Assembly: GCA_019914945.1 (NCBI GenBank)
Contig: CM034112.1
Coordinates: 6,394,001 to 6,458,000 of the forward strand
Direction: 5' to 3'
Source: Typha latifolia
Taxonomy: Eukaryota > Streptophyta > Magnoliopsida > Poales > Typhaceae
DNA length: 64,000 nt
In this document: positions 31,529 to 50,536 of the stretch, in pieces
Layout: every line of letters begins with the position of its first letter
How positions within the stretch are numbered: the first letter of the stretch is position 1
Made by a program: the position numbers and the translations under genes
Notes under the pieces: model-generated
Told to the model about the DNA's origin: nothing
The model's database searches: none
Seen by the model: only the letters and a program-made list of their open reading frames with translations

Positions 31529-32521
31529 TGATACGATTCGGACTTCACCGACGTCGTCTCGAGCATGGATTCACTTTAGGAGTGTTTTTATTTTATGTTT
31601 TAGTGTTTAATTTCTATTAAAATAAGTTTTCTGTAAGTCGCGTTCGAACGCTGGTGGAGTGAGTTCGAACGCGGTTTGTAAACAGGGTTGTAAACGTGGA
31701 GAAGAGAATGTACTATGCGTTCGACTGCAGTGCGTTCGAACGCACTGTGAACGCCTGCATCGCGTTCGCAAAGACCGACAGGCGCGTTCGAACGCCTGCA
31801 TCGCGTTCACAAATCCAGAAGAGCTAATTCGGTGCGTTCGAACGCGGTCGGCGAAAATTTTGTTTTAGGGTTAATGTGAGTTGTTGGTTAGCCTATAAAA
31901 GGATGTGTAGGGCAACCAAAATCATTATTGATTATTGAGATTGAGTTTTGCCTTGCCTCCTCCGTCTTCTTCGCTCCCGTTCTCTCAATCCCCGGCGACG
32001 CCGCTTTTAACCTCCCTTGTCCGGCTAATCACCCTCGTCCCTTAGGGGTGGCCCTCTTCTCCCCCTTCGTCCAATCTATCCAACACTTGCCCTAATCCTT
32101 CCATCAACCACAACCGTTCCACCATCACTTTTCACCGGTGCCACCACATTATGCCGGTCCACCACCATCCACCATTACCTAGGATCTCGTGCCTCCATCC
32201 ACGAATCCAAAACAGAGCATCCTGACGTTCGTCCTCTAAACGAACGATATCTCGAGATCCCCAACTCCGATTCGCCTGTAACTAGATTTGTTGGAAAGCT
32301 CTTTTAGGAGGCTACAATATATCAAAATCTCACGTCGATCCGACGACAGCATATTTTGGGATCTAATTTTGAAAGTTCCGTGCCAGATCGTAACAAGCTG
32401 GTATCAGAGCCTTAGCCCCAAAGAGAAGATCGTATCAATCTGGTATCAGAGCCTTAGCCCCAAAGAGAAGATCGTATCAATCTGGTATCAAAGCCTTAGC
32501 CCCAAAGAGAAGATCGTATCA
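31529..32521 (+). repeat. LTR1 of B1
   Basis: It runs from TGATACGATTCGG to GATCGTATCA (993 bases). U3 has dense CGTTCGAACG motifs (31640-31850), a TATA box lies at 31894-31902, then pyrimidine-rich R and U5. The last 124 bases are three 42-base PBS-containing units. Confidence 0.9.
31894..31902 (+). promoter_or_regulatory. TATA box of B1 LTR1
   Basis: TATAAAAGG lies directly after the CGTTCGAACG-bearing U3. LTR2 has the same box at 36336-36344, and B2 has it on the minus strand at 57045-57053. Confidence 0.6.
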
Positions 32522-32523
32522 AT
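32398..32523 (+). repeat. Three tandem 42-bp PBS/LTR-end units in B1 LTR1
   Basis: The units start at 32398, 32440 and 32482. Each opens with CTGGTATCAGAGCC (one with an A change) and closes with GATCGTATCAAT. The true primer site follows at 32524. LTR2 has three units at 36841-36966, and both B2 LTRs have two. Confidence 0.9.
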
Positions 32524-32537
32524 CTGGTATCAGAGCC
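32524..32537 (+). promoter_or_regulatory. Functional-position primer binding site of B1
   Basis: CTGGTATCAGAGCC is followed by ACC, unlike the TTAG of the upstream units. It lies 25 bases before the gag ATG, between LTR1 and the coding region. It is complementary to plant initiator tRNA-Met. Confidence 0.8.
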
Positions 32538-32562
32538 ACCTTTCCTCGGACAAGCGCTTCCA

Positions 32563-34506
32563 ATGACGACAACCAGATCCATTGCTGCACGGCGAGATGA
32601 TGAAGAAGAGATTCTCCCAATAGAGGAGGGAGAAACGATTGCAAGGACTTCCACCCGTGGAACCGCCCGATCTAATCAGAATACGGAAGAACCTAGCGTT
32701 CAAGCCATGTTGGGGTCTATTTCAGAGCAATTGGCCATCAACAACCAGATGATGATGGAGATGATGCGGGAACTACGGGCGAACGGGAAAGCACCATCGA
32801 CCCCACGACGCGAGTCCACCCCCTTGAACCCACCGCCACCGGTTCAGCCTTTGCAACCACAAGAGCCGCTGCTACCTCCACCCTATGGGCAGAGGCAAGC
32901 AAGGATGGTTACACCAGGTCCAGTTGTAGGTGAACCCATCCGACGGGTGAACCACTATGGAGACCGTCTTGGAGATCAAGATCCGTGGGCGGGTCAATAC
33001 GATCTGGAACCACAACAAGTTAATCAAAACCGAAGGAGGGATCATCAACCCTTCATGGTGCATCCTCCCCCGGTTAGACATGGACATGATCCGGAACGAG
33101 ACAATGGCATCCGTGGACAAGTCGTGCGTCTCGAATTCCCCAAGTTCAAAGGTGGCGACCCGATCGATTGGTTGTATAGGGCGGAGCAATTCTTTGCATA
33201 CCAAGGAACGGCGGAAGAGTACAAGGTGACGCTTGCGAGCTTCCACCTTGAGGATGCGGCGCTTCATTGGTTTCGAGCAGCCAATGCCACTGAGGCTATC
33301 GAAACTTGGGCTGAATTTTGCGCCGATATCACACGGCGATTTGGAGCATCGAGATATGAAGACTTTGATGCTCTCCTCTCAAAGACGGTGCAAAAGACCA
33401 CGGTTGGGTCATACCAAGAATAATTTGAGAAAATTAGTAGCCGATGTCATCCACCATGGACGGATCAGCAACTTCGCAGCACCTTCATCTCCGGGTTGCG
33501 AGGTGACATACAAGCCGATGTGAGGGCTTTAAGGCCTAGAACCTTAAAGGAGGCCTTCGAAGATGCGGTGCTTATGGAAGACAAACATAGGGCCATGAAG
33601 ATACACTTGAAACAGAGTTGGATGAGCCAAGGAAGCCGCAATCAAGCTCAACCAAACATAGCGGCGAGAAATACTATCGGAGTACCAAGGGTTGCTGCTA
33701 CAGTGGTACCTCCTCGAGCATCCTTGAAGCCATCCCAAGATGTGAAGTATGCACCTAGAGGTCCGGGACGAGCACTCACACCAGCCCAAGTAGAAGAAAG
33801 AAGAGCCAAGGGCCTATGCTTCCGTTGTGATGAGAAGTTTGTACCCGGGCATCGCTGCGCTAAACTGATGGGATCGGTGATGCTAATCGATGGATTGGAG
33901 GAAGTGGAGGACGAGTTTGCAGCTGAAGGTGCAGATGTGGCTGGACATCAAGGAGAAGAAACTGAGGAGCAACCCGTGGAGGACATGATAGCCAAAATCT
34001 CCCTTCACGCCTATTCGGGGACAGCTGCGCCAAAAACCTTGCGGGTAAACGGGGTAGTCAAGAAAACCACAGTGAGAATCTTGATTGACACCGGGTCCAC
34101 CCACAACTTCATTGACAAGAGGCTCCTTAGGAAGATTGGGCTTGAGTCGGAATCCATGGAAGGGTTCGATGTGACAATCGGAGATGGCACCACATTGCGA
34201 GTAGATTTTATTTGTGGAGGTGTAGAATTGAAGGTGCAAGGCCAAACTTTCACATTGGATCTTTATCCGTTGGCCTTGCAAGGTGCCGATATTGTTTTGG
34301 GGACCGAATGGCTTCGAAGCTTGGGGCCCGTGACATTTGATTTTACAAGCCTCACATTGACGTTTTGGAGAAAAGACAAGAGAGTGCTGCTAGATGGAAG
34401 CCAACCGCTACTTGAACTTCCAAATGAAGGGGTCGCAAGGGAGCTCGCTTCTTTCTCGGCGCCCACCTTTCCTTTCTTCTCAGACATTGACCATCTTCTC
34501 AGATGA
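32563..34506 (+). pseudogene. B1 gag-protease, one internal stop
   Basis: ATG at 32563 follows the primer site (MTTTRSIAARRDDEEEILP). The frame is open to a TAA at 33421 (B2 has GAA there) and then open again to a TGA at 34504. Domains: an acidic, Pro-rich N-terminus; a capsid-like region from about codon 195 (KFKGGDPIDWLYRAEQFF); a zinc knuckle CFRCDEKFVPGHRC; and an aspartic protease with ILIDTGSTHNF (Asp codon at 34087). After protease (VTFDFTSLTLTFWRKDKRV) the reading goes to GVARELASFSAPTF, which in B4 lies after RNase H, so RT and RNase H were removed in frame. Gag would package RNA and protease would mature it; the stop prevents a full product unless read through. Confidence 0.9.
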
Positions 34507-35910
34507 GCTAGTGTAGAGGATAGTGAGCTGGTCCAACTCATGGAGGAGTTGAGAGAGAACCCCTCAAGCCACCCCGAGCACGAGGAGCGTGATGGGTTAG
34601 TACTAGAGTGCGGGCGAATCAAGGTACCCCGGAACGAAGAGCTACGGAGACTATTGATGGCACACTTCCATGATACTCCTATAGCAGGGCATGAAGGGGT
34701 ATTACGTACCTACAAGCGGCTGGCCCAAAACTGTACATGGACAGTGATGAAGACGGATGTGAAGAAGTATGTGCGTGAATGTCAAATCTGCCAACGAGTC
34801 AAATCGGAGGCACTCAAGCCTAGCGGGCTGCTACAACCACTACCGATACCAGAGCGTATTTGGGAGGATATCTCCATGGACTTCATCGAGGGGCTGCCGG
34901 AGGTTCGGGGACAATCGGTGTTGTTGGTTGTGGTGGATAGACTAAGCAAATATGCTCATTTCATAACATTGTCTCACCCGTTTTCAGCAAAAAGGGTTGC
35001 TGAAATTTTTGTTCGGGAAGTGGCACGCTTGCATGGGATGCCTAGGACAATCGTGTCAGACCGGGATCGCATCTTCATCAGTGAGTTTTGGTCCGAGTTC
35101 TTCAGATTGCAAGGGACTCAAATCAACCTGAGTTCAGCTTATCACCCCGAGACAGATGGCCAAACCGAGGTGGTGAATCGCGGACTGGAGCAATACTTGC
35201 GATGCTTTGTGGCGAAACGACCAAGGGATTGGGTCAAATTCCTTCCATGGGCTGAGTGGTCATACAATACGGCTCATCACTCTAGCATCGGCATGACCCC
35301 CTTTGAGGCGGTTTATGGGCGCACTCCCCCTGTCTTGCGTGCCTATGATAGACTCGCGGCGGCGGATAGGACCGAGCTTGACTTGGAGCTTGCTGATCGA
35401 GATGAAACATTGAGACTGCTCAAGACTCACCTAGCCACAGCCCAAAACTGCATGAAGCAAACTCATGACAAAGGCCGACGTGAGCGAGAATTTGAGGTGG
35501 ATCAATTGGTGTTCGTTCGAGCTCAACCGTATCGGCAATCCACATTAAGACCAATTTTGAACCAAAAGTTGGGTTACAAGTACAACGGTCCGTACCGAGT
35601 GTTACAACGAATCGGTCCAGTAGCTTACCGGTTGGACCTACCTGAAGGAACCAGGATACATCCGGTCTTCCATGTATCAGCATTGAAGGCCCAGATCAGG
35701 CCTAACCAGGTGGTGGGTTCGGCCTTACCCGAACTAATGGAGGAGGATGGTCCCACTGAACCGGTCCGAGTATTAGACCGTAGGAAAAGACGCCATGGGA
35801 CCATATTAGAGACTGAAGTGCTAATTGAGTGGCTGGGCAAATCTACTGACAAGTCTACCTGGGAGCTAGAGTCAGATATCATGGATCGCTTTCCAAACTT
35901 CAAACCTTGA
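34507..35910 (+). CDS. B1 integrase with chromodomain, open frame
   Basis: This is the longest open coding stretch in the window, in frame with gag-protease but separated from it by the TGA at 34504. The first Met is at 34540 (456 codons). It has a zinc domain (HDTPIAGHEG ... CQIC, His44/His51, Cys81/Cys84) and a catalytic triad Asp114 (SMDFIEG), Asp174 (IVSDRD) and Glu210 (DGQTEVVNR), the last two 35 residues apart as in retroviral-type integrases. A GPYRVLQRIGPVAYRLDLP tail and a short chromodomain (LETEVLIEWLGK ... TWELESDI) end at FPNFKP. It would insert cDNA, with the chromodomain guiding it to chromatin marks. There is no start context of its own, so expression as a separate protein is doubtful. 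Confidence 0.85.
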   Translation, partial: ASVEDSELVQLMEELRENPSSHPEHEERDGLVLECGRIKVPRNEELRRLLMAHFHDTPIAGHEGVLRTYKRLAQNCTWTVMKTDVKKYVRECQICQRVKSEALKPSGLLQPLPIPERIWEDISMDFIEGLPEVRGQSVLLVVVDRLSKYAHFITLSHPFSAKRVAEIFVREVARLHGMPRTIVSDRDRIFISEFWSEFFRLQGTQINLSSAYHPETDGQTEVVNRGLEQYLRCFVAKRPRDWVKFLPWAEWSYNTAHHSSIGMTPFEAVYGRTPPVLRAYDRLAAADRTELDLELADRDETLRLLKTHLATAQNCMKQTHDKGRREREFEVDQLVFVRAQPYRQSTLRPILNQKLGYKYNGPYRVLQRIGPVAYRLDLPEGTRIHPVFHVSALKAQIRPNQVVGSALPELMEEDGPTEPVRVLDRRKRRHGTILETEVLIEWLGKSTDKSTWELESDIMDRFPNFKP

Positions 35911-45198: not shown

Positions 45199-46175
45199 TG
45201 ATATGATCTCCCCTTTTAGGCTAAGGTTCAATCTCTTCCGATTTTCAGATCTAGATTTGATCTAGTATGGAAATTTGTAAATAGATCCCGAAAGATGCCG
45301 CCATCAGATTGATGTGAAATTTTGATATGTTGTAACCCCGGAAAACAGCTTTCCCACAAATCAAATTTCAGGTGAATCGGATGTAGGGTTCTCGAGATAT
45401 TGTTCGATTAGTTGATGAATGTCATGGGGTCTAATCAGGATTCGTGGATGGAGGCACGAGATCGTAGATGATGGTGGTTGGTGGTGGATCGCCGTTAATG
45501 GGTTGGCACTGGTGAAAAGTGGTGGTGGAAGGGTTTTGGTTGATGGAAGGGTTAGGGCAAGTGTTGGATAGATTGGAAGAAGGGGGAGGAGAGGGCCACC
45601 CCTAAGGGACTAGGGTGATTGGCCGGTCGAGGGAGGTTAGAAGCGGCGTCACCGGGGATTGAGAGAACTGGAGCGAAGAAGATGAACGAGGCAAGGCAAA
45701 AACTCAATTCATCAATAATGACTCCACGGTTACCATCCACACCTTTAGAGGCTAACCAATAATTCAAAATTAACCCTAAATAGTGAATTTTCCTCCATGA
45801 TTGCCATCCACACCTTTAGAGGCTAACCAAAAATTCAAAATTAACCCTAAACAATACATTTTCGCTGCCCGCGCCCGATCGCGTTTGAACGCACTTATTT
45901 CTCTCTTCTCTGGATTTGCGAACACGATGTAGGCGTTCGTAGGCGCGTTCGAACGTAGGCATTTGCAGGTGCGTTCGAACGCATAATTCAGACTCTTTGG
46001 ATGTGCGAACGTGATGCAGGCGTTCGCAACCGCGTTCGAACGTACTCTACCCACGTTCGAACGCGACATACATAAAACTTATGTTTTAAAGAATTAAATA
46101 CTAAAACAAGAATAAAAGACACCCCTAAAGTGTATCCCTGCTCGAGACGTCATCGGTGAAGTCTGAATCATATCA
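45199..46175 (-). repeat. 3' LTR of B5
   Basis: On the plus strand it runs from TGATATGATCTCCCC to GAATCATATCA. Full RL-B order: U5, R, a TATA complement, and U3 with CGTTCGAACG motifs (45880-46065). A segment near 45770-45850 is locally duplicated (ccatccacacctttagaggc occurs twice). It has no 42-base PBS-like units. Confidence 0.85.
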
Positions 46176-46815
46176 ATCCACCACGCTTCCATACACCTTG
46201 TCCTCAAGGTGACTCCAATCAAACGTGTTGTGTTCGGTGGGTCATCCTCAGTTGAGCTTGGATACTTATACTCCTACTAGCCCAAGGTGGAATTCAAGTT
46301 CGTCTACATTGAGTCCACTTAGCCTCGGGTGGTCGAACGCATTGACTCAATGTCAGTTTAGCAATAGAAATATGGTGCATGCGATTGCGCTCGGGAGGTC
46401 AAGTTAGATGTAGTTGGTGGATCCATATTAGGTCCTCCCAGTGAATCGAGTTAGGTTGCGCTCATAATCGTTCTGCCCACTCCATGGATTAGGATCCAAA
46501 TCAAATGTATACTGGTATAAGCAAACTCGACTTAGTTAAAGTAAAGAGTTTTGATCATGCCCCTTATTTGACATAATTGAGTCCCCAAGTCCAGAGATGA
46601 CTCACACTTGACTTGACCCCTTTGGCTCTTTGGTCCAACCCAGCTCATGTCTAGCAACTCAACATGGTCAAGCCCAACCATGTAGCCATCTTGAAATTAT
46701 AACCACTTAGGGCTTTAAATTTTTTTTTGAAATCCCTAATATTTCTCCCATAATTCCATCTCCATCAGCTATTGCCATAGGAGTTGCCTTGGCACGTGGC
46801 AGCCTTGGCTGAGTA

Positions 46816-47225
46816 GTGACCACTTCCAGTAGTTGCTTTGGAAGGGTTCCCGATAGTGTGGGGGCAGTCGGTGGCGATGGAAGGTCGAAGTTGGCCCAAA
46901 ATATAAATTCTTCATCTCCTTCTTCTCTTTCCTGTCACAGCCACAACAAGGAGCCTTCGGCCGCTTGGAATATGAAAATAGCTGTCAGTGGGGTCCCTCT
47001 TGGGGTGGCGACGATTGACTGCTGTGGAAGGCTGAGGCTGATAAAAACAAAATCTTTATCTTCTTCTTTTTCATTTAGTTGCAACCATCGCAGGAAGCTT
47101 TCGGCCGTCTGGGTGAGAAAAGCAGCAGCCCACGAGGTCTTTACGGGCCTGTCGGTGGCTAGTGCTGGCGTGGGTGGAAAATTGCGACCTTCTCCTTCGA
47201 GTTGTAGCTCAGCAGGGAGTTGAAA
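46816..47225. repeat. Degenerate ~145-bp tandem units in the B5 cargo
   Basis: Related phrases recur: aaattcttcatctccttctt (46905) and aaatctttatcttcttcttt (47050); caaggagccttcggccgctt and aggaagctttcggccgtctg. On the minus strand both translate to similar text (AESFLRWLQ and AEGSLLWLQ, each followed by an acidic/basic run). A weaker third unit follows near 47180. Confidence 0.55.
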
Positions 47226-48141
47226 CGTCATCGCCAGTGACGACGCTGTCACAGTAGATTGTCGATTGACCGAGGAGAATGGTGGAAGGTCGCTGGAGGC
47301 CATACGCAATTTCTTTCTCGTTGCCGACTCGCCGTGGTTGCAAAGGGAGGTGGTGTAAGGCGACCCAAGTGTCGGAACTCGCGGTTCCAAATCATCTCCC
47401 TCACCACTGATGAGGATTCCTGATGAGGGATATCCGCGGCCATCAGTGGTCTTCCTCCATTCAATAGTAGTTCGCACGGTTGTCGACTCGTCGAAGAACT
47501 CTATTCTGACGTCAAAAGAACCTTTCCAATCGTCGAGCTCGCCGGAGGAAACTGTTGCCTTGAAGCTGGACTCTTCGTTGTTTCTACAAGGATCAAGAAA
47601 GTTGCGGCTAGCCTTTCGCGGTTTGTCAGCGAGGTCTCTGGTGCATGGGAAGATGTGGAGGTTTCGAGAGCTGCTACAATGGTTGAGGAACCCATTGTAG
47701 TTGGTGGCAGTTCGTTGCGGCTAACCATGGGTTGGGGTGTAGAAGCTCGATCTTGTTGGTTAGCCGAACTCTCCTCTATTTTTGTGGGCAACGGGGAGGC
47801 CATGGAGGATGTTGGGTATGCTGCGGAGGGCACCCCATGCTGCCTTGTGATTGCCATGCTTGTTGAAGAAGGTTTCAGCCATGCCACTATAGCGTCGGTC
47901 AATCTCCGGCTAAAGTCACGACTTGTGACCTTGTTTGTCGTTAACGTCTGTCTATATGGTGAAGGGTCATATTTGTATGCTGGTGTCCGTTGCCGCGATG
48001 CCTCCTTCTAGGTGGTGTTCCGGGGATTGAACACAACCCGTCCTGCCTTGTCGGTATACACGTACGCGGTGGTGGTCTCGTTGTAAGGCACCTGCGTCCA
48101 GGGAGACCACCATGACATTCACATAGAGATTTTGAGTCCTC

Positions 48142-48295
48142 CTATTGTATAACTTGAGTCTTTGTGTTCCAGAAGAAGAGGTATCCCGTCTCATCGTCGA
48201 TCAAGGCCTTCCAAGGCTTCGACAAGTCTACATCGATCAGTGCATATGTTAGGCTTTTTGGATAAGCCGACGTCCTTGACATTAGTGCATTCCTG
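48142..48295 (-). pseudogene. Captured WW-domain fragment, DEAD-box RNA helicase-like
   Basis: The minus-strand frame 48142-48366 starts in gag (NNQMMMEM) and passes into YALIDVDLSKPWKALIDDE, then TGYLFFWNTKTQVIQ and a stop. The pattern PWK-x-L-I-D-x-x-TG-x-L-(Y/F)-(Y/F)-WN-x-x-T-x-V-x-Q is the WW domain near the N-terminus of plant DEAD-box helicases of the DRH1/RH14/RH46 group, where YAP-x-D-x-x-L-PKPW precedes it. The helicase core is not seen. The fragment is fused in frame to the gag remnant but ends in a stop where QYE is expected, so no useful product is likely. Identification rests on motif memory, not on a search. Confidence 0.65.
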
Positions 48296-48530
48296 ATTGC
48301 CATAGCTTCTCTTGTCGCCCGTAGTCCCCATATCATCTCCATCATCATCTGGTTATTGATGGCCATTTGTTCGAATCATGGCTTGAATGCTAGGCTCTTC
48401 CGTATTTAGATTTGGTCAGGCAGTTCCGCAGGTGGAAATTCCCACAGCTGTTTCCCCCTCCTCTAATAGGGAAATCTCTTCTTCCTCATCTCGCCGTGCA
48501 GCCATAGCTCTGGTTGTCATCATAGGAAGC
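48296..48530 (-). pseudogene. B5 gag N-terminal remnant
   Basis: The minus strand reads from an ATG near 48519 (MTTRAMAARRDEEEEIS) through EEGETAVGIST and a shifted QAMI stretch to NNQMMMEM, the B1/B2 gag start with stops and a small deletion. It joins the captured segment just after LRATREA. Confidence 0.75.
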
Positions 48531-48564
48531 GCGTGTCTGAGGAACAGTGGCTATGATACTAGCT

Positions 48565-48760
48565 TGATACGATCTCCCCATTTAGGCTAAGGTTCGATCT
48601 CTTCCGATTTTTCAGATATGGACTTGATCTGGTACGGAACTTTGTAAATACGTCCCGAAAGATGCCGCCGTCGGATCGATATGAAATTTTGATATGTTGT
48701 AGCCCCGGAAAACTTTCCAACAAATCAAATTTCAGGCGAACGTCAGGGCGCTTCTGTCTC
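48565..48760 (-). repeat. 5' LTR fragment of B5
   Basis: TGATACGATCTCCCC onward is the RL-B U5 end, adjacent to a decayed primer site complement (gtggctatgatactagct). An internal deletion joins caggcga to acgtcaggg. Similarity fades after about 48760, so U3 is lost. Confidence 0.7.
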
Positions 48761-48963
48761 TATGGAGGTGTGCCTTCTTGTTGATGCAAAACCATTGATC
48801 CAGTGATTAGCATAGTGTCTGACAATCATTGGCTTTGATATCATTTGATATGAGCCTATCCACATGTAGTCAGGTGTTCAACACTCCGTTAGCAATGATC
48901 TTTGGACTGATTCGAGAGTGGACCTTATGAGGGTGGCTTTCGGAGATCTACCCATCAAAGCTC
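48761..48963. other. Unclassified short stretch
   Basis: About 200 bases between the B5 LTR fragment and the A-g LTR. No repeat family or coding signal was recognised. Confidence 0.4.
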
Positions 48964-49817
48964 TGATAAGTCACGGAACGATTCCTTTAAGATCTGAATT
49001 TTTTCCAGGAAGCATTTCGCACAATCGAGGAAAAATATTCTCTCGTAGTCAGAAAATTACGAAACCTAGTGGAATTGATCTGGTAGCTCCCGATCCACGC
49101 TTTTCGTATTTAAGCCCTTCGTAGATTCAAATTGCAACTGGGACGAACGTATGATTTAGTGCGGATGATGGTGGTGGTGACGGGTGGAGTGGAAGTTAGG
49201 GTTAGGGATGATAATGGAGATGACGGTGGATGGTGGATGCTGTTTAAGGGATAAAGATGAAGAGAAAGAAGTGGTTGAGATCCCAAAGAAAAGGGAGGAC
49301 TCGACAGTCGAGGGAGATTATAAGTTAGGAGAGGACTCGACAGTCGAGGGAGATTATAAGTTAGGAGAGACCTTGCCAATGTTAGAGGTGGTAGATTGGT
49401 GAAGAGGGAGGAGGGAGATTAGGGTAGAGAGAAAAAGAGAGGTAAGAAATAGATATTCCAATAGCATAATAAATTTAGCTGCCATCCACACCTTTATAAA
49501 GGCTAGCCAACAAGCCCTAGTAATAACAACTAACCCTAATCCTAGTGGAATCCCGTCGATCGCGTTCGAACGTGTCAGATCGTGTTCGAACGCACAACAG
49601 GCATTCTCTCTCTGTGCGAATGGGATGCAAACATTCGAACGCGCTTGACCGTGTTCGAACGCACGTTTTGCGTTCTCTATTTTTGCGAACCTTATGCAGA
49701 TGTTCTTAAGGGCATTCGAATGCAACCCGTTCTACGTTCGAACGCGACCTACAGGAATTTTATTTTAGTAAAAATAAACTACTAATGCAGTAAGAAAAGA
49801 CTCTACAAGGTGTATCA
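48964..49817 (-). repeat. 3' LTR of A-g
   Basis: On the plus strand it runs from TGATAAGTCACGG to GTGTATCA, followed by the purine-tract complement. U3 (49550-49750) is rich in CGTTCGAACG. A 36-base segment is tandemly duplicated at 49295-49366. Confidence 0.85.
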
Positions 49818-50536
49818 GCCCACCACGCTTTCCCCACCTTCCCTTCAAGGTGTAAAGTCGGGGAAACGCTCCGAGATGTCCATCTCTAACTCCCATGCAT
49901 TCATACACCACATCAAATGAAGTCATGTCAATATTGCTGTGGTAGGCGGTGTTGTACGACCGCTCCACCCACGGTAAGAATTCCAACTATCGTTTCGACA
50001 TCTCTCCAACAAAGCACCTCAAGTACGGCTCAATGCCTCGATTTACCACCTCGGTTTGGTCATCCGTCTGTAGATGGTAGGCCATATAAAGTTCAATCAA
50101 GTCCCCTATAATCTGAAAAACTCCATCCAAAAGTAGCTCATAAATACACGATCACGATCCGAGACAATTGTGCATGGTATGCCATGTAACCGAATCTCTA
50201 ACAAAAATTTCAGCTACTGACTTGGCTGAAAATAGATGTGACAATGCAAAAAAGTGAGCATACTTGCTCAATCTATCAATCACCATAAAAATAACGGAGT
50301 AACCACATACCAGCGGAAGTCCTTCTATGAAAAACTCCATCCAAAAGTCGCTCAGAAATACACAATCACGATTCGAGACAATCGTGCATGGCATGCCAAG
50401 TAACCGAACAACATCTCAAACAAAAATTTCAGGCCGACTTAGCTGAAAATGGATGTGACAATGTAGAAAAGTGCACATACTTGCTCAATCTATCAACCGC
50501 CACAAAAATAATGGAATAACCATGTACCAACGGATG
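49818..50536 (-). pseudogene. A-g integrase remnant with internal deletion and duplication
   Basis: After the purine tract and a chromodomain end (to about 49894), the reading jumps into the integrase core (SYNTAYHSNIDMTSFDVVYE). The part around DRDCVFLSDFW is duplicated: 50115-50328 and 50329-50536 are copies with a period of 214 bases, and have diverged since. Cut by A-h. Confidence 0.8.

Follow-up and report, generated by a model that had tools for sequence, protein, structure and literature searches.

The long terminal repeat (LTR) retrotransposon B5 lies on contig CM034112.1 of Typha latifolia, in a stretch of 64,000 nt (C14:6394001-6458000, hereafter the window). It is a decayed, non-autonomous element on the minus strand, and we compared it with its relatives in the same genome (214.19 Mb, 62 contigs); the genome-wide row counts given below are lower bounds. 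B5 probably belongs to an old non-autonomous family derived from RL-B elements, in which one WW domain of a host gene was fused a single time to the N-terminal part of Gag and then amplified under selection. The original prediction was that B5 carries about 2.1 kb of captured host DNA. The finding is real and richer than B5 alone, but narrower than first stated. Captured host DNA amounts to a single domain instead of the full 2.1 kb. The other ~1.65 kb is the body of an abundant non-autonomous family, for which no host origin was found.

Origin of the WW domain

The WW piece of B5 occupies 48133..48282 on the minus strand. Its homologue of PRYA starts at 48252, and the peptide SKPWKALIDDETGYLFFWN is read in the minus frame 48375-48145. 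A TAG stands where the second Trp codon would be (48144-48142) and cuts the domain short, which leaves its Pfam score (E = 5.9e-5, 23.5 bits) under the cut-off of the family, 26.9. The relative L015 has a complete WW domain (E = 1.5e-9, 38.1 bits), and both it and L020 (34.0 bits) exceed the cut-off. These scores, together with the homology to host genes, rule out a chance resemblance. A second WW domain behind the first was also considered and rejected, as Pfam finds only one in L015 and L020. A PDB sequence search returned two weak matches and nothing useful.

Four host loci carry the same motif, RYAPxDPxLPKPWKxLxDxxTGxLxxWN..T...Q.E.P: L039, the pair L040/L041 (~16 kb apart on C2) and L042. 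They are presumably DEAD-box genes of the DRH1/RH14/RH40/RH46 type. A DEAD domain accompanies the WW within the sequence read for L039 (E = 1.2e-20); the stretches fetched for L040-L042 were short and DEAD was scored for L039 alone. The early assignment of the WW domain to helicases of the DRH1/RH14/RH46 type was thus upheld; the element itself lacks the helicase part. Amino-acid identity between the element WW and the host loci was 60-63% over 40-45 residues. With a second query, L040-L042 reached 59.5-67.5% across 40-45 residues, and L039 had 48% across 63. Unlike the host motif, the element copies have Thr instead of Pro behind WN in 26 of 27 cases; at the Tyr of QYERP, 23 of 27 have Trp and the remaining four a stop. 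Among 28 rows, four have Arg at the first Trp and five a stop at the Trp of FFWN, and the second Trp is a stop in 4 of 27. Such Trp-to-Arg and stop changes are expected of decaying copies. One place is counted twice in these 27 and 28 rows (L003 is the same as L021).

At the DNA level, B5 is 79% identical to L040/L041 over 62 nt and L015 79-80% over 70 nt, and the copy L028 is 73% identical to the host over 113 nt. Over 120 nt of WW, the proportions of nonsynonymous and synonymous differences (pN/pS), averaged over 17 copies, were 0.27/0.72 to L040, 0.28/0.75 to L041 and 0.30/0.71 to L042, compared with 0.10/0.69 between the host genes L040 and L042. The capture is old. The donor is probably best matched by the L040/L041 pair, and the host-derived part of B5 is small, about 130-150 nt, comprising the WW piece only. 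Homologous genes are present in the host genome (L039-L042) for the WW piece, and none was found for the rest of the cargo. At each host locus the captured stretch lies inside one open frame, and host similarity ends just past the WW within that frame, so the stretch contains no intron by which capture through RNA could be told from capture through DNA.

A single fusion between Gag and WW

In B5 the N-terminal part of the RL-B gag (48283..48523, minus strand) joins the WW piece in frame after NAP (NAL in B5), and the junction reads NALMSRTSAYPK. In a motif scan that allowed small variants, the junction NAP|MSRTSAYPK was found in 21 of the 22 distinct loci read that have the element structure of B5 (type 1, see below), with L026 unmatched. 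The 21 include L027 and L029 in a cluster on C12, and the units of tandem arrays also carry it. Therefore, there was one fusion, which was then amplified. The predicted in-frame join holds locally and across these loci, although B5 itself has three breaks in its Gag-WW frame: there is a stop at 48418-48416, the frame shifts between 48395 and 48376, and the TAG lies within WW.

Native gag relatives have, with variants, a proline-rich stretch (NPPPPV..LLPPPYG) at the place of the fusion. The fusion therefore dropped this stretch and the later parts of Gag, and the WW replaces exactly the proline-rich stretch. The PPxY motif was present in all 12 young RL-B gag loci fetched, which are near-identical and include two from the window itself and so are weak evidence, and in three of the six diverged gag copies that reach the place (eight fetched). 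RL-B relatives are very numerous: the N-terminus of their gag gave 1858 first-look candidates, 150 of which were scored.

Copy numbers and element types

The original prediction proposed a look for other B5-like copies with the same cargo, and they were found by both the cargo and the WW searches. All 75 candidates of the WW peptide search were scored and gave 75 rows. Four of these are the host genes, 35 fall in array regions (C12:3661-3702 kb with 14, C29 with six, C30 with seven and C37 with eight), and 36 lie elsewhere. The last represent 34 places, with two copies split, and 26 of the 34 were read. When the genome was searched with the Pfam model of WW, 28 of 38 rows passed the cut-off, comprising 15 element rows, the four host genes and nine others. 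For the 2.1-kb cargo, with 40 of 368 candidates scored, at least 47 rows were obtained: B5 and another 46, which match at 80-89%. A 263-aa query from the body of a relative yielded at least 160 rows (145 of 600 scored). The statement that the 2.1 kb shows no retrotransposon similarity was correct within the window, but not genome-wide. The copy sets exclude copies with too low a coverage of a region, as well as L001, L004, L009 and L050, which duplicate B5, L015, B5 and L028, respectively. L003 and L021 were both counted in the residue tally, the junction scan, the cargo tree, and the earlier selection and pairwise runs. Array units did not enter the residue tally or any of the selection runs.

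Four element types were distinguished. Type 1, which includes B5 and most WW loci, consists of an RL-B LTR, primer site, Gag N-terminus fused to WW, body, purine tract and RL-B LTR. Both L002-L006 and the arrays repeat this order collinearly, and in L002-L006 the LTRs, primer site and purine tract flank the captured piece. Type 2 (L020, L028, L053, L055 and, in part, L038) has another LTR, LTR-C, with the ends TGATATGA..TCGTATCA, followed by a primer site, a short leader and an ATG. Its protein starts MATSRSR.. in L028 and L038, and similarity to B5 begins only at 48280-48284. Type 3 (L045, L046, L047 and L060-L063) lacks the WW: behind an RL-B LTR, its gag runs directly into the body at 47885. 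Type 4 (L051) combines LTR-C with an RL-B gag start and the body, also without WW. The same WW and body thus sit behind LTR-C as well as behind the RL-B LTR. Ahead of PRYA, L020 and L028 of type 2 have Gly, as in L040/L041, and most type 1 copies have Ser, with Gly in L017 (type 1). This would fit type 2 being nearer to the original capture, without proving it.

Among three solo copies of LTR-C, the 5-bp target duplication was perfect in L056, matched at four of five positions in L058 and was absent in L057. No autonomous element with LTR-C was present among the ten LTR-C loci read. L038 (C11:4137500 region) is an LTR-C element with the first part of the WW piece only, and it lies inside the protease region of another gypsy element.

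Type 1 also forms head-to-tail arrays with a period of ~3.3 kb and LTRs common to the units, in L043 (C37:1-10000), in C12:3661-3702 kb, on C29 and on C30. The array units of L043 are 98.5% identical, and the shared segment consists of the purine tract, LTR and primer site. In these arrays an LTR element has turned into a satellite-like repeat. A tandem arrangement was seen again in L061 (C12:1414400-1418900), where a primer site directly follows the 3′ LTR.

Evidence for selection on the fused protein

Host gene fragments carried by plant LTR elements are usually taken as passengers. We compared changes common to several copies, which should mirror the evolution of source elements, with private changes, which should mirror decay after insertion. 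The duplicate L021 and the array units were left out, and the P values are one-sided and uncorrected. For WW (27 loci), changes shared by at least four copies comprised 8 nonsynonymous and 11 synonymous ones (8:11), compared with 40:10 for private changes (odds 0.18, P = 0.0034). When sharing by at least three copies was required, the shared count was 14:12 (P = 0.018). For the Gag N-terminus (30 loci of types 1, 3 and 4, at least four copies), the counts were 39:25 and 101:19 (P = 0.0005). Behind the WW (25 loci), shared and private changes did not differ (20:13 and 42:24, P = 0.47), and the true frame of the body (25 loci) gave odds of 1.05 (P = 0.63). The wrong frames of the Gag N-terminus, WW and post-WW stretch were not significant. 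The pairwise ratio of nonsynonymous to synonymous substitution rates (dN/dS) was 0.55 for the Gag-WW stretch, compared with 0.71 and 0.80 in the wrong frames. The counts of shared and private changes are moderate evidence for purifying selection on the Gag N-terminus and WW, with no such signal in the sequence behind. On the same moderate evidence, the Gag-N/WW protein would have mattered to the element.

It is possible, although rather doubtful, that the WW was instead a passive passenger, captured once in an open frame and never useful, and that what looks like constraint stems from small numbers, from mutation bias or from the time spent in an unseen host gene before capture. Type 3 has amplified most recently without WW, the wrong frames of the body also depart from odds of 1, and part of the pN/pS contrast to the host may stem from the host lineage. 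However, the contrast between shared and private changes has its origin inside the element family; it shows only in the true frame of WW and the Gag N-terminus and ends behind the WW. It also persists when another four loci, relatives of the C12 cluster, are removed (6:9 vs 41:9, P = 0.0029, 23 loci).

The body of the cargo

The body occupies 46239..47885 of the minus strand. It is an open frame in young type 3 copies, and no origin was found for it. Among these copies, L060 (C10:8373900-8378900) has a Gag-body frame of 581 aa and, behind it, another frame that encodes the integrase end and chromodomain. Stop density in the body was 0.81 per 100 codons in one frame, compared with 4.3-4.8. These long open frames would fit a reading in which the whole 2.1 kb is captured host DNA, with the body derived from a host gene that was lost, very diverged or unrecognised. 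This seems improbable, as no host gene was found for the body in the same genome, the body occurs in the at least 160 rows mentioned above, its ~1.65 kb had no Pfam match, and its frame shows no constraint. Selection for a body protein was likewise unsupported: shared and private changes were alike in the true frame (odds 0.91-1.05), and pairwise dN/dS was 0.73 in the true frame and 0.66 and 0.70 in the wrong ones. A match of the cargo to a transposon interior, which the original prediction held to speak against capture, was thus found in part, for the body.

Between the body and the WW lies a stretch (47886..48132, minus strand) that accompanies the WW in types 1 and 2 and is missing from type 3; no host match was found for it. 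The 61 aa behind the WW gave 72 rows, and among the part of these that was read none could be identified as a host gene. One weak match to the post-WW peptide (C11:3432998-3433072, E = 0.005, 64% over 25 aa) lies next to a body copy at C11:3431928-3432581.

Age of the types

In type 1, the LTR pairs of L002-L006 share 82-85% identity across 158-952 bp. The pairs of the type 3 copies L060-L063 are 96-99% identical, except for one stretch of L063 (89.5%), and L060 reaches 99.2% over 511 bp. The substitution rate of plants is near 1.3e-8 per site and year. At this rate, type 1 would be several million years old and type 3 less than about two. In a midpoint-rooted tree of the cargo from 40 loci (one place twice), the type 2 and type 4 copies grouped with L012 and L013 of type 1 (0.91), and the young type 3 clade grouped with L010 and L025 of type 1 (0.97), with L047 of type 3 apart. 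Because copies with WW fall to either side of the root and L010/L025 join the young type 3 clade, it seems more likely that type 3 lost the WW, although the tree is not decisive and L047 stands apart.

Architecture of B5

Inward, B5 shows the 3′ LTR, purine-tract region, cargo, gag start, primer site and a 5′ LTR remnant, all on the minus strand. The 3′ LTR (45199..46175) is of the RL-B type according to BLASTN against the other LTRs of the window and relatives, and its sense ends are TGATATGATTC...GATCATATCA. Inside it adjoins the purine-tract region (46176..46212); 46171-46212 is 90% identical to 30225-30185, and GTGGTGGAT stands ahead of TGATA in relatives too. The primer binding site (48549..48561, TAGTATCATAGCC), which we take to be of the methionine-tRNA type, reads TGGTATCAGAGC... 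in relatives. All the parts that B5 was said to keep are present, but its 5′ LTR is cut to 176 bp (48565..48740), which are 87-88% identical to 45199-45376. LTR similarity of the B5 type ends at 48740, and with the right end lost, there is no flank to compare for a target-site duplication.

To the right, outside B5, the sequence belongs to another family, with its leader, primer site and LTR on the minus strand (48741..49817). This LTR spans about 48850 to 49817, and the pol end of that family continues from 49818. The pol end, LTR and primer site stand in a row (48741-49895), as if one LTR were common to tandem units. Although the right side of B5 is thus a junction with another element, a chance patchwork of the WW piece and LTRs through unrelated later insertions is ruled out by the same collinear order in L002-L006 and the arrays.

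Six-frame Pfam scans of the internal region of B5 found no protease, reverse transcriptase or integrase, with WW as the sole match, and the collinear copies agree. B5 also lacks the capsid part of gag, all of pol and the chromodomain. An RL-B copy in the window (32500-35910) has gag, protease, integrase and a chromodomain; Chromo scored E = 8.8e-8 in 34507-35907 and 2.8e-7 in L060.

A proposed history

We suggest that the family of B5 is an old non-autonomous one that descended from RL-B, a Ty3/gypsy element with a chromodomain. In the distant past, an element would have acquired the WW piece of a DRH1/RH40-type gene, and a single join would have set it in frame behind the RL-B Gag N-terminus, replacing the proline-rich and later parts. 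Because the internal sequence has no protease, reverse transcriptase or integrase, its RNA was presumably copied and inserted in trans by the enzymes of complete relatives. During amplification, selection would have kept the short Gag-N/WW protein and not the sequence behind it. Inner modules would have been swapped between RL-B and LTR-C, for which template switching between co-packaged RNAs is probably the simplest route. A later lineage would then have deleted the WW.

Several observations weigh against this account. The youngest lineage read, type 3, has no WW; therefore, the WW is not needed for movement. The counts behind the selection signal are small, one-sided and uncorrected, and for WW changes shared by at least two copies (25:15) P was 0.054. 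Nor is the baseline flat, given odds of 0.61-0.73 (P 0.005-0.03) in the wrong frames of the body. L042 is as near to the element copies as L040 by pS (0.71 vs 0.72), so the L040/L041 pair is a candidate donor. A scan of three frames found no reverse transcriptase in the RL-B copy of the window, and a complete autonomous partner was not among the relatives read.

The WW of the element is probably a protein-binding module, and its candidate ligands are the proline-rich Gag stretch of a partner or host RNA-processing proteins. We speculate, with little confidence, that it served as a docking module, through which the Gag-N/WW protein and its RNA joined partner particles by either ligand. Selection would then have kept the WW for docking until a later lineage did without it. 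Its key residues are closer to WW domains of the FBP11/PRP40 type than to PPxY-binding ones.

One small host domain is thus found in a single Gag fusion, in dozens of places and in two LTR families, with a selection signal that ends with the domain. If the account is true, a host domain became a functional protein-binding module of a retroelement, and the use of captured domains becomes directly testable. It would also suggest a specific route by which a non-autonomous element might couple itself to the Gag of its partner.

Comparison with known systems

The Ty3/gypsy chromoviruses (RL-B) are the source of the Gag N-terminus, LTRs and primer site of B5, and the integrase end and chromodomain persist in type 3 copies. 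In contrast to chromoviruses, B5 has neither the capsid part of gag nor pol. Dasheng and BARE2 are similar high-copy elements that lack some or all coding functions and are presumably copied by an autonomous partner; neither is known to have a host protein domain fused to Gag. The original prediction compared B5 with transduplicating LTR elements such as maize Bs1. This comparison is sound as far as the LTRs, primer site and purine tract of L002-L006 and the host homologue in the same genome are concerned, but the host part is WW only. Bs1 reportedly contains pieces of several host genes and is low-copy. Like the B5 family, it is said to be an LTR element without its own enzymes and with an in-frame fusion of gag and host coding sequence. 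Unlike Bs1, the B5 family has one host domain, dozens of copies, tandem arrays, a selection signal and a move between two LTR families.

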